A stretch of DNA of 43,951 nt from Clostridiaceae bacterium (GTDB lineage Bacteria > Bacillota > Clostridia > Acetivibrionales > Acetivibrionaceae), in assembly GCA_012519925.1 (NCBI GenBank), contig JAAYPF010000248.1:1-43951 (forward strand), written 5' to 3'. The notes beneath the pieces are model-generated. The model was not told the origin of the DNA. It did no database searches and saw only the letters and a program-made list of their open reading frames with translations. A program made the position numbers and the translations under genes. Positions 1,063 to 23,506 of the stretch are shown piece after piece. Numbering within the stretch: the first letter of the stretch is position 1; each line of letters starts with the position of its first letter.

Positions 1063-1635
1063 TTGGATAATGATTATATAACTAACTTAAAATATGGACA
1101 GCACAAAGAAACAGTTATTATAAATATACTAAATATAGCCTATGGGATTTCTAGTATACAAGATAACACTGAAAACGTGCATGACCTCAAATTAAACTCC
1201 GGCTGTCTTGTTGAGGTAAAGTGTGATAGCAACATTAAAGCAACTAGCAATTTCTGGCTTGAATTGTTCGGGAATTTTACCAAACAAAAGCTTGGATGGT
1301 TCTTTTATACAGATTGTAATATTCTTGCATATTGTGCTGTTAAAAACAGGAGTCCCTATGAGCTAGAAAAGGTTTTCTTCATTGACTTTCATGGGTTATA
1401 TAACTTTGTTAAAGAAAAATACTACAGTGGAAATTTCACAAACGAAATTGATATTTGTGCCAATATAGTATACAAAGGGAATGAAATGGCACTTCTAATA
1501 CCAATCAGTGAAGTAAAACCTTTTATTGTATCTGAATTTACGAAATATGACGGTGTAGAAACCTTCTGCAACCCAAAATATAAGTCCATGCAAGAATTTA
1601 GTAAGAAAGGATATATAGATGCCCTCGTTTGCTGA
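1063..1635 (+). CDS. PD-(D/E)XK nuclease-like protein
   Basis: A 190-aa protein read from a TTG start chosen because GGAAGGAGG (1046-1054) lies 8 bases upstream. Residues 41-53 show D41, nine residues, then E51-V-K53-C-D, the D...E-X-K core of the PD-(D/E)XK nuclease fold. A Gln/Lys/Glu-bearing helix precedes it (GQHKETVI, 12-20) and alternating hydrophobic strands follow (WFFYTDCNILAYCAV). The size fits phage-type single-domain members of that superfamily. No specific subfamily is recognised, so target and role (resolvase, restriction-like or repair) are unknown. Last gene of the plus-strand set. A GC-rich hairpin overlaps its stop codon. Alternative: an unrelated protein with a chance E-V-K motif. 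Confidence 0.6.
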   Translation: MDNDYITNLKYGQHKETVIINILNIAYGISSIQDNTENVHDLKLNSGCLVEVKCDSNIKATSNFWLELFGNFTKQKLGWFFYTDCNILAYCAVKNRSPYELEKVFFIDFHGLYNFVKEKYYSGNFTNEIDICANIVYKGNEMALLIPISEVKPFIVSEFTKYDGVETFCNPKYKSMQEFSKKGYIDALVC

Positions 1636-1643
1636 GGGCATCC
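1619..1643. terminator. GC-rich hairpin at the end of the nuclease-like gene
   Basis: An 8-bp perfect stem (ATGCCCTC / GAGGGCAT, 7-base loop) spans the stop codon at 1633-1635. It is followed by only a short C/T-rich stretch, so termination on the plus strand may be weak. It sits between the convergent nuclease-like and integrase genes and may serve both strands. Confidence 0.45.
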
Positions 1644-1668
1644 CTTTACCTGTTATATTGCCAGACAC

Positions 1669-2610
1669 TTATAACTTAATGTAATCCTTACTTTTGCCTC
1701 TTGCTATACATTCTAATGGATTAAATTTTTCGAAACTCTCTTTTAAATCCCCTTGTCCAAAATCCCTTAAATATTGCTGAGTTATCATTATATCTTCGTG
1801 CCCAAGTATTTTCTGTAATCTAAAAATATCTCCGTTACTCTGTATCCAGTGCTTAGCAAAAGTGTGTCTAAATAAGTGACAACTTGTCTTTGTAATACCT
1901 TTTCTTTGGTTATATTTTGCTATTGCATGGATTAATCCATTACGTTGTATCTGCTTTCCCCACTGGTCACAAATAAGGTAATCATCAGGTTCTCCGCCTC
2001 TATATTCAAGATAAAGTTTCAATGTATCATGTAATGCTTTAGTCATGGGTACAAGTAGCTGTTTTCGTCCTTTTGTTTTTGTAAATCTTATCATAGATTC
2101 ATCAAATAATAAGTCTTTTATTTTAAGGTTTAATAAGCTACCAATTCTACATCCTGTACCAATTAATACACTAATAGCAGTCCATGTTCTGAACTCTGTA
2201 AAGCTGCACTTCTTGATATTAGGTCTCTCAAGTAATATCTTTAACTCTTCCGTAGTATATGTAGCTTTAATTTCCTCATCCGTTTTTAGTAACTTTACCT
2301 TAAATGGAGTAATGTAACCTAATTCACTACAGTAATTAACGAATACCCTTATTCCCCTAAGCCTTGTGTTAATAGATGTTTCCTTCATTGTTTTCTTTAG
2401 TTCAAAAATCAGGTCTTCAACTACACTTTCAGATAATGAACTAACTATGTTGTCGGGCATAATTGTTTTGGTCAAATAACGAAATGATTCTTGATAATAA
2501 CTTATTGTGTCTTTTGACAAGTTTCTTAACTGGCATTTCTTTATGAAACCATCAAATGCTTGCTGTATTGTTTTTGATTCTGCCGAATTTTTCATTGAAA
2601 TTCTTTTCAT
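1669..2610 (-). CDS. Tyrosine recombinase / integrase
   Basis: A 313-aa phage-type integrase. An N-terminal SAM-like core-binding domain (about 10-105) is followed by the catalytic domain, with Arg155 (GTGCRIGSLL), a beta-hairpin Lys (FTKTKGRK), His245 and Arg248 (HLFRHT), His271 (LGHED) and nucleophile Tyr280 (TQQYL). All catalytic residues are present, so it should be active. The frame is open up to 2709, but that extension runs through the tRNA terminator hairpin. ATG at 2610 after GGTGGT is preferred; ATG at 2631 is possible. The gene starts about 100 bases from the 3' end of tRNA-Arg, the usual geometry of an element integrated into a tRNA gene. It probably catalyses integration and excision of the element whose other genes lie to the left. 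Confidence 0.9.
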   Translation of the reverse strand: MKRISMKNSAESKTIQQAFDGFIKKCQLRNLSKDTISYYQESFRYLTKTIMPDNIVSSLSESVVEDLIFELKKTMKETSINTRLRGIRVFVNYCSELGYITPFKVKLLKTDEEIKATYTTEELKILLERPNIKKCSFTEFRTWTAISVLIGTGCRIGSLLNLKIKDLLFDESMIRFTKTKGRKQLLVPMTKALHDTLKLYLEYRGGEPDDYLICDQWGKQIQRNGLIHAIAKYNQRKGITKTSCHLFRHTFAKHWIQSNGDIFRLQKILGHEDIMITQQYLRDFGQGDLKESFEKFNPLECIARGKSKDYIKL

Positions 2611-21361: not shown

Positions 21362-21838
21362 TCAGATTTTATCTCCACAAAATGGGCATAAGAAATTTTT
21401 GTTACTCAAAGTGACATCAACAAATTTGTCACACTGTTTGCAATATTTTTTTACCTCATAGCTATCAGAATCATCGTATTTCTTTTCGCTTTCAGTAGAT
21501 ATACTTTCTAAAACCATTTTTAAATCATCCTTGCCTATCGGCATCCTAATTACTGCACTAACCTTATTTCGGTCAAAATCATTGATATCAATGGCATTGC
21601 TTGAGGATATTACAATTTTAATGTTAGGGTATTGAATTTTAATAACCGCTGCGAGTTGATCCCCATTAATTTCCTTCATAACATAATTTGTAATTATAAC
21701 ATCGGGACAAAAATTATGTACGGCTGCTATTGCATTATATTCGTCAGTTACACTAACCTCATAATTGATAGAAGTCAACATATCCTTCATAACTTCATTT
21801 TGGAGTCTACTATCATTTATTAATAGAACTTTTTTCAT
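21362..21838 (-). CDS. Degenerate response-regulator receiver with C-terminal zinc ribbon
   Basis: A 158-aa protein. Residues 1-115 have the CheY fold (KKVLLINDS start, CPDVIIT strand, KIVISSS, VSAVIRMP). The phospho-acceptor Asp is replaced by Asn51 (DVIITNYVM) and the conserved Lys before Pro by Met99; only Asp9 of the acidic pocket remains. After a charged linker (115-130), Cys133-x2-Cys136 and Cys151-x2-Cys154 form a probable zinc ribbon. No output DNA-binding domain and no kinase nearby. ATG supported by GGAG 9 bases upstream. Probably a phosphorylation-independent protein-interaction module; partner unknown. Confidence 0.85.
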   Translation of the reverse strand: MKKVLLINDSRLQNEVMKDMLTSINYEVSVTDEYNAIAAVHNFCPDVIITNYVMKEINGDQLAAVIKIQYPNIKIVISSSNAIDINDFDRNKVSAVIRMPIGKDDLKMVLESISTESEKKYDDSDSYEVKKYCKQCDKFVDVTLSNKNFLCPFCGDKI

Positions 21839-21921: not shown

Positions 21922-22599
21922 TTAATTCATACCTATTGGACACACCTTCATACAAACACCACATACCGAACCTCTTCCTATATGTTTGAATTTCGAGTTC
22001 ATATAGTCACTACACGCTTTTGCGTCAACGATATCACTCCTGCTACACATTTTTGTCCAACAGTTTCCGCTTAAAGCCATAGCAGGACAACTCCTAACGC
22101 ATCTGTTACAGTCCCCGCATTGACTAGGCATTATAGAATTATTACAACTTATCTCCATATTAGTAAGTATTGTACCTAGCCGAACTCTCGGACCGCATTT
22201 TGGACTAATAAACAATCCACTCTTCCCTATCCATCCCAAACCTGCTTTTACAGCTGCAGTCTTATGAGGAAAAATTGCTGAGTACTTCTCGCTCATATCA
22301 TTAACGGTTTGAGAGGCGGGTACCGCCAATACCTTATATCCTTTTTCCTGAATCATAAGAAGCCCTTTAAGGGTAATCTGATCTATAAGTGCATTTACCG
22401 TCCTATAGTGATGAAAATAAGTATACGTCGGTTTATCTGTTATCTCATCAATAATAAAATCGGAAAGTCTGACTACAATTGTTATAGCAAATTTCAATTC
22501 TTTCAGCTTTTCCGGGAGTTCTTCGTATACATTGGAGTATCCTACTAAGGATGCACCAGCCTGCTTTAAACTTGTTTCAAGTTCATTAATAAACGCCAA
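21922..22599 (-). CDS. QueG-like iron-sulfur protein (double 4Fe-4S)
   Basis: A 225-aa protein related to epoxyqueuosine reductase QueG. The central HKTAAVKAGLGWIGKSGLFI and LGTILTNMEI match the QueG corrinoid/substrate region, and the C-terminal half carries a ferredoxin motif CGDCNRCVRSCP and a second cluster motif CGVCMKVCP, with further Cys between. QueG itself is longer (about 350-380 aa, often with C-terminal HEAT repeats), so this is a short paralogue, common in Clostridia and of unproven substrate. Start is TTG with AGGAG 9 bases upstream. A structured 200-base leader precedes it. Cytoplasmic redox protein. Confidence 0.75.
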   Translation of the reverse strand: MAFINELETSLKQAGASLVGYSNVYEELPEKLKELKFAITIVVRLSDFIIDEITDKPTYTYFHHYRTVNALIDQITLKGLLMIQEKGYKVLAVPASQTVNDMSEKYSAIFPHKTAAVKAGLGWIGKSGLFISPKCGPRVRLGTILTNMEISCNNSIMPSQCGDCNRCVRSCPAMALSGNCWTKMCSRSDIVDAKACSDYMNSKFKHIGRGSVCGVCMKVCPIGMN

Positions 22600-22774: not shown

Positions 22775-22969
22775 CTTCTACTTCTATAATATAATACCAT
22801 AGCACTAATAATTTTCATAGACACTTTATATGTTGCAATATCTATAATCCACGAAAATATATAGCTCATTTTGAAAAACAAATACGGGCAATATGGTCTA
22901 TACTAAATGACTATGTTATAATGTTTTATGAGGTCTAAAGCTCGAACTAGATACAGTGGAGGTAAACTA

Positions 22970-23506
22970 ATGCGTACATTAAAAAATAAAGAACTTGCTG
23001 AAAACAAGCTTATACTTCTATATATAATACATATGGCAAATATGCCTATAAGCAATCTGCAAATCACAAAGATAATTCTTGAAAATCAGTTTATGAATTA
23101 CTTTATTTTCCAACAGTTCTTAAATGAATTATGTGAACTTGAATATTTATCCTCAAATATAACAGATAATAAGACTTTTTATACTATAACAGCATCGGGA
23201 AAACAAACATTAGATTACTTTACAAATCATATACCTCTAGATGTCAAGAATAATATTGACAGAAGTATGCACGAAATTAGAAAAAGAATTAAAAATGAAA
23301 CTTTAGTTAAAGCAGACTACAAACCCGAAAGCGAAAATGAATTTATTGTTAAATGTCAGGTACATGAAGATAACTTTTCCCTTATTGATTTGGAAATATC
23401 CGTTGGAACAAAAAGTGATTGTAACACCATCTGCGAAAACTGGAAAAAGTTTTCCAATCAAATATATGGGGAAATACTTGAGAGTTTAATAAAGAAAAGG
23501 GAATAA
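22970..23506 (+). CDS. DUF4364 family protein (predicted winged-helix regulator)
   Basis: A 178-aa protein. N-terminal helical region (NKELAENKLILLYIIHMANMPI...TKIIL), a wing-like stretch (YLSSNITDNKTFYTITASGKQTLDYF) and a C-terminal alpha/beta part (VKADYKPESENEFIVKCQV) match the clostridial DUF4364 family, thought to be DNA-binding. ATG at 22970 follows GTGGAGGT; the open extension to 22928 is rejected. It is alone on the plus strand among minus-strand genes, with its own terminator, so it is transcribed independently. Target unknown. Confidence 0.75.
   Translation: MRTLKNKELAENKLILLYIIHMANMPISNLQITKIILENQFMNYFIFQQFLNELCELEYLSSNITDNKTFYTITASGKQTLDYFTNHIPLDVKNNIDRSMHEIRKRIKNETLVKADYKPESENEFIVKCQVHEDNFSLIDLEISVGTKSDCNTICENWKKFSNQIYGEILESLIKKRE

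Follow-up and report, generated by a model that had tools for sequence, protein, structure and literature searches.

A Bacillota family of small stand-alone receivers that lack the acceptor aspartate and carry an optional, predicted zinc ribbon

The receiver gene and the fold of its product

The window, i.e. the entire stretch of DNA analyzed here (43,951 nucleotides of a Clostridiaceae bacterium, contig JAAYPF010000248.1), encodes a small receiver-like protein with a cysteine-rich tail (Table 1). The gene starts with ATG, with AGGAG located 9 nucleotides upstream of the start codon. It is a gene beyond chance, as indicated by 49 homologs besides the window protein and by dN/dS values of 0.08–0.36 in the 12 member pairs computed, although dS exceeds 1 in three of these pairs. 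The protein matches the Pfam model Response_reg (PF00072) with 37.4 bits, over the cut-off of 30.2 bits (E = 3.1e-9); nothing else scored above its cut-off in the Pfam scan and, in agreement with the original prediction, no DNA-binding domain was matched, the OmpR type included. In NCBIfam, the best match (28.5 bits vs. a curated cut-off of 329) is not a fit, and the matches of the other 49 homologs, judged by E-values only, are scattered over other receiver families.

Table 1 Features at the locus, with positions in the window.
Feature	Positions	Strand	Evidence
Whole gene, 158-aa stand-alone Asp-less receiver with C-terminal zinc ribbon (predicted)	21362..21838	minus	ORF, Pfam, 49 homologs, AlphaFold2
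Receiver-fold domain, residues 1–116; N8, D9, N51, S79 and M99 at former active-site positions	21491..21838	minus	Pfam PF00072, AlphaFold2, VIA-align Z 19.7, column counts
Asn51 codon, acceptor position	21686..21688	minus	T. maritima CheY alignment; Asn in 50/50 members; codon checked
Met99 codon, switch-Lys position	21542..21544	minus	Thr in 44/50 members, Lys in 0/50
Predicted C4 zinc ribbon, C133-x2-C136-x14-C151-x2-C154, to the C terminus	21365..21442	minus	
QueG/reductive-dehalogenase-like short 4Fe-4S protein, upstream same-strand neighbor	21922..22599	minus	

In the alignment with Thermotoga maritima CheY, Asn51 falls on the acceptor Asp, as originally proposed, and N8-D9 on the Asp-Asp pair, whereas Met99 was assigned to the Lys column by alignment with the other receivers of the window genome. 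PF00072 matches this genome in 39 places at E = 0.001 or better, 38 of them over the cut-off. The acceptor column of these 39 receivers contains Asp in 37 cases, Glu in one and Asn in one, namely the window protein; in the Lys column, 35 of the 36 sequences that reach it have Lys, and the window protein alone has Met (L167, L168 and L173 stop short of this column, and L175 and L176 are doubtfully aligned). An AlphaFold2 model, computed with six sequences as input, predicts with confidence (mean pLDDT 84) a receiver fold in which helix 4 is nearly absent, being confined to residues 85–87, and the linker comprising residues 117–128 is poorly ordered. When this model was compared to solved structures with VIA-align, the top matches were ordinary receivers, the best of which was the YycF receiver (Z 19.7, 1.7 Å over 117 residues). 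The claim that the receiver fold is kept is thus borne out at the level of prediction.

Family membership and conservation of the pocket and the ribbon

Whole-genome searches, which stayed within Bacillota, yielded a family with 50 members from as many genomes, the window protein included, with pairwise identities of 25–92% (median 41%) and one clear copy per genome. The first search, over 60 relatives, gave nine clear orthologs, again counting the window protein. In profile searches, the order, represented by 58 genomes, contributed 9 clear members; with up to 9 or 18 candidates scored per genome in the class, f56 and phylum searches, members were also identified in at least 14 of the 391 genomes of the class sample, 4 of the 22 genomes of family f37, at least 32 of the 194 genomes of family f56 and at least 6 of the 398 genomes of the phylum sample; the search sets overlap and were merged, so that 50 is the size of their union. 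Members were picked by score rather than by any residue, the weakest with E = 7e-26. At a limit of 1e-12, 21 of the 58 genomes of the order gave a hit, of which the 9 at 6.5e-54 or better were accepted as members; below these came L010 (4e-18), followed by CheY-like and further receivers, none stronger than 2e-13. One of the 15 class hits at the limit of 1e-14 (G060/L063, E = 6e-15) is an ordinary Asp-containing regulator of 358 aa and was dropped, and a limit of 1e-20 was applied to the f37, f56 and phylum searches. No Asp-bearing ortholog was found between 7e-26 and 1e-20 in the order, class, f37, f56 or phylum searches.

The locus L010 (approximately 1495–1860, minus strand) encodes another stand-alone receiver whose acceptor residue is Asn, but which keeps the Asp-Asp pair and the Met-Pro motif (MNLIMPE); it was not placed by the tree, and is possibly an independent loss of the acceptor Asp. 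A pattern scan of genomes gave six loci, five of which are family members; the remaining one, L036 from Brocadiia (E = 6e-7), was dropped. By eye, L036 (3998–5215, plus strand) has a receiver-like N terminus, apparently without the acceptor Asp, fused to a Ser/Thr-kinase-like part. An origin from mobile elements was considered and rejected: there was no plasmid match, and none of 68 pattern stretches in viral contigs was confirmed.

A receiver domain is detected by Pfam in all 50 members at E = 0.01 or better. Eight columns are invariant (N8, D9, N51, M54, G59, K67, S79 and P100), and five of these (N8, D9, N51, S79 and P100) map to the former active site or its immediate vicinity. Position 99 is occupied by Thr in 44 members, Ile in three, Val in two and Met in one. 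Thus, the features of a functional CheY-type receiver, an acceptor Asp and a switch Lys, are replaced throughout, with Asn51 in 50 of the 50 members and Lys99 in none. The loss of the residues required for classic phosphorylation, predicted from the single protein, is therefore family-wide, and the opposite outcome, namely a local mutation among homologs that mostly retain Asp and Lys, did not materialize. The joint conservation of Asn51, Met99 and four cysteines, also envisaged originally, is realized in part: Asn51 is invariant, but Met99 is peculiar to the window protein, and the cysteines are found in 45 members only.

The first position of the acidic pair (DD1) is Asn8 in all 50 members, whereas the second (DD2, D9) is acidic in all of them. 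Position D+4, a turn-forming Pro in usual receivers, is Lys or Arg in 46 members, and 41 members have an aliphatic residue at position K-3, where true receivers use an aromatic one for Tyr-Thr coupling; most of the classical switch route has thus disappeared too. Kinase-driven switching is very unlikely in proteins in which the acceptor, the Lys, one Asp of the metal-binding pair and, in most members, the aromatic residue for coupling are replaced. Among bacterial pseudo-receivers at large, DD2 is acidic in about 20% and non-acidic in about 80%, by the figures given in a recent review (PMC12632262); compared to this, the uniformly acidic DD2 of the family makes the pocket look selected rather than drifting. 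Two cysteines outside the ribbon also recur, Cys75 in 45 members and a cysteine at position 10 in 29 (Ser in the other 21); the window protein has Ile75 and Ser10.

In the tail, C133, C136, C151 and C154 of the window protein form the two CxxC pairs noted originally. All four cysteines are present in 45 members and absent in L007, L008, L009, L057 and L062; the spacing between the pairs is 13 residues in 33 members, 14 in seven, 11 in three and 10 in two. After the receiver, zinc-ribbon-type models are the commonest Pfam matches across the family, and the 25 Pfam families listed for the 50 members include no DNA-binding output domain. Zn_Ribbon_1 matches 31 members at E = 0.01 or better (by the E-value criterion only), and Zn_ribbon_19 aligns with residues 132–156 of the window protein at 20.1 bits, below its cut-off of 30.8. 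A structure model of the ribbon only, searched with Foldseek, did not match any fold significantly (best E = 0.95). A scan for ribbon remnants over approximately 400 nucleotides downstream of the five ribbon-less genes, in three forward frames, detected no pair of CxxC motifs, and a single CxxC downstream of L007. On the receiver tree, the distribution of the ribbon requires four changes which, together with its presence in 45 of the 50 members, marks the receiver as the core of the protein.

Descent and genomic surroundings

In the tree of the receiver parts, groups f1, f37 and f112 each form one side of a branch (starred for f112, not for f1 and f37), with the bootstrap picture unsettled. 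The largest group, f56, is not a single clade and requires 3 changes; transfer or paralogy may be part of its history. In a tree with other receivers, which covered 17 of the 50 members and omitted the window-genome receivers L167, L168, L173, L175 and L176, the 17 members form one clade (100/99).

We compared 41 neighborhoods by clustering, with Pfam applied to ten representatives and other genes named by eye. Generic ABC ATPases aside, no adjacent gene shared between the main lineages was seen in these 41 neighborhoods. Within the order, the receiver gene follows a same-strand gene for a short QueG-like protein in 6 of the 9 loci. This protein contains a 4Fe-4S double-cluster domain, scores 53 bits against a QueG cut-off of 200, and was found in 12 of the 15 genomes searched; in the window, no terminator-like site was found between the two genes. 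An obligatory partnership is rejected because one genome (G006) has the receiver gene alone and three others (G003, G005 and G009) have the QueG-like gene alone; the latter is a frequent neighbor within the order, not a required partner. Divergent from it in the window is a gene for a DUF4364 protein (22928–23506, plus strand) with weak winged-helix and Sso10a-like matches, relatives of which occur in 7 of the 41 neighborhoods.

In f56, a convergent ABC-F-type gene directly adjoins the receiver gene in 14 of 23 neighborhoods (counted by eye, one checked with Pfam); in most cases, a gene for a Rex-type repressor comes next. The arrangement was not seen in other families; a functional ABC-F/rex partnership was accordingly rejected, and the adjacency is better explained by a common position than by a common function. 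The receiver gene of the four f37 loci is one gene away from cobT/cobU/cobS, and outside the order, f56 and f37 the settings differ.

Modes of action and relation to known receivers

Taken together, these observations describe a family of small stand-alone Asp-less receivers, with an optional ribbon, that selection maintains in many anaerobic members of the Bacillota. The best reading, which takes up the constitutive adaptor suggested originally and to which we assign about an even chance, is that these proteins are phosphorylation-independent adaptors, with the receiver fold as the docking module and the ribbon as a second, dispensable contact. The fold would be held in a single conformation by a network of hydrogen bonds among Asn, Ser and Thr residues in the old pocket, and, so frozen, would dock on one protein partner; the ribbon, on its flexible tail, might provide the additional contact with either protein or nucleic acid, and activity would be set by the amount of the protein or by the partner rather than by a kinase. 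This reading draws on the replacement of the phosphotransfer residues in all members, the invariant pocket and the fold kept in the model, and is supported by the dN/dS values, the single copy per genome and the position of f1, f37 and f112 each on one side of a branch. Precedents are the FrzS pseudo-receiver, reported to dock on SgmX (PMC12632262), and RitR, in which Asn takes the acceptor position (PMC4395418). Counting against the adaptor reading are the failure to see any adjacent gene shared between the main lineages in the 41 neighborhoods, the ribbon match below the Pfam cut-off in the window protein, the ribbon model with no significant structural match and the spread of f56 over more than one clade.

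The concentration of invariant columns around the pocket could equally mean ligand binding. Accordingly, in a less likely but serious alternative, the repurposed pocket (N8, D9, N51, S79 and T99) would sense a ligand or metal ion, with binding altering the fold and the tail relaying the change. Besides the five invariant columns in or near the old active site and the acidic D9, ligand binding has been reviewed for the pseudo-receivers ShkA, CikA, KaiA, JadR1 and RedZ (PMC12632262). However, two of the three side chains that would coordinate a metal are Asn instead of Asp, which is expected to reduce the affinity for cations, the window protein has Met rather than Thr at position 99, and the neighborhoods compared suggest neither a ligand nor a linked pathway.

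Somewhat more doubtful is a phospho-dead relative of flagellar CheY that acts in chemotaxis or motility by binding a CheY partner constitutively or by competing with CheY. When the family receiver profile was run against the 38 other receivers of the window genome, the best match, at 61.9 bits with the next at 46.2, was L140 (120 aa). Just after L140 come two ORFs that, on inspection by eye, look like flagellar FliO and FliP, and CheYs also head the PDB matches of the profile. As in the family, L140 and T. maritima CheY (1tmy) are stand-alone single receivers, but CheY keeps the Asp and the Lys, whereas the family has neither and mostly adds a ribbon. Moreover, CheY may score best only through its closeness to the receiver consensus, and a joint clade of the family with CheY is neither supported nor rejected by the tree (p-AU = 0.558). 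CheW is present in all 50 genomes with the gene, compared to 34 of 39 chosen genomes of related groups without it (Fisher p = 0.014, kinship ignored), and, in the class sample, in 154 of the 391 genomes, among them all 14 that carry the gene (Fisher p = 1.5e-6, kinship ignored); as a yardstick, Spo0A_C was found in 282 of 371 genomes. Because CheW is near-universal in related genomes without the gene, the association is confounded by descent. Furthermore, no che or flagellar gene was recognized among the clustered neighbors and 18 single neighbors.

Comparably doubtful is a broader scenario in which the pocket was converted once, at an early stage, into a binding site that has hardly varied since (N8-D9-N51-S79-T99), the ribbon being a detachable effector; the protein would then be a ligand- or partner-gated module outside two-component phosphotransfer, possibly derived from flagellar CheY, in a hitherto unnamed Bacillota family.

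A redox or metal sensor operating via cysteines appears improbable. It would resemble RitR, which, together with other atypical regulators, is reported to dimerize through cysteines (PMC12632262), and it would account for the prevalence of Cys75, of the ribbon cysteines and of Cys or Ser at position 10. However, a single cysteine mechanism does not fit the whole family, given Ile75 and Ser10 in the window protein and the missing ribbon in five members.

Deamidation of Asn51 to Asp, which would restore a normal phosphorylated receiver, is favored by Gly after Asn, but Asn51 is followed by Leu, Tyr, Phe, Arg, Met or Gln and never by Gly. Although raised for Asn-containing receivers (PMC4395418), deamidation is hardly credible here, with Lys99 absent and DD1 being Asn in all 50 members. 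Finally, decay of a response regulator or a local mutation, which has the lost residues and nothing further in its favor, is rejected in view of the same pocket in 50 members, the purifying selection and the single clear copy per genome across several groups.

As a kind, Asp-less receivers are already known: they are reported to comprise about 4% of receivers, with Asn as the replacement in 16% of them (PMC4395418), and Asn51 places all 50 members among them. The same account presents RitR of Streptococcus pneumoniae as the archetype of Aspartate-Less Receivers; like the family, it has a receiver fold in which Asn replaces the acceptor Asp, and changes in its acidic triad had no effect in the reported tests (PMC4395418). 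RitR differs in being a DNA-binding regulator of the OmpR type, whereas no DNA-binding domain was matched in the window protein, the C terminus of which is a predicted zinc ribbon; the acidic pair is Glu-Lys in RitR and Asn-Asp in the window protein. A zinc-ribbon-like domain of receivers has been described as well, under the name TackOD1, a Cys-rich output domain of unknown function found mainly in archaea and in some bacteria; TackOD1, however, is double-ribbon-like, with 11 conserved cysteines (five CxxC and one HxxC; PMC5847659), compared to four cysteines in two CxxC pairs in the window protein. The notion of a new type therefore stands in part: this is a new conserved family, but of a known kind. 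No published description of the family was found in the open-access literature, among the matches listed.

FrzS of Myxococcus xanthus is a larger polar motility protein, unlike the 158-aa window protein, and is not known to carry a zinc ribbon; no linkage of the family gene to motility genes was recognized. The FrzS pseudo-receiver resembles the family in being without the Asp site, and recognition by FrzS is reported to proceed without Asp phosphorylation (PMC1974792). A review from 2025 (PMC12632262) describes the activation of bacterial pseudo-receivers as a mystery. A small, single-copy, stand-alone family with an invariant dead pocket offers a simple system for the role of the receiver fold without phosphorylation, and its naturally ribbon-less members are ready-made controls.
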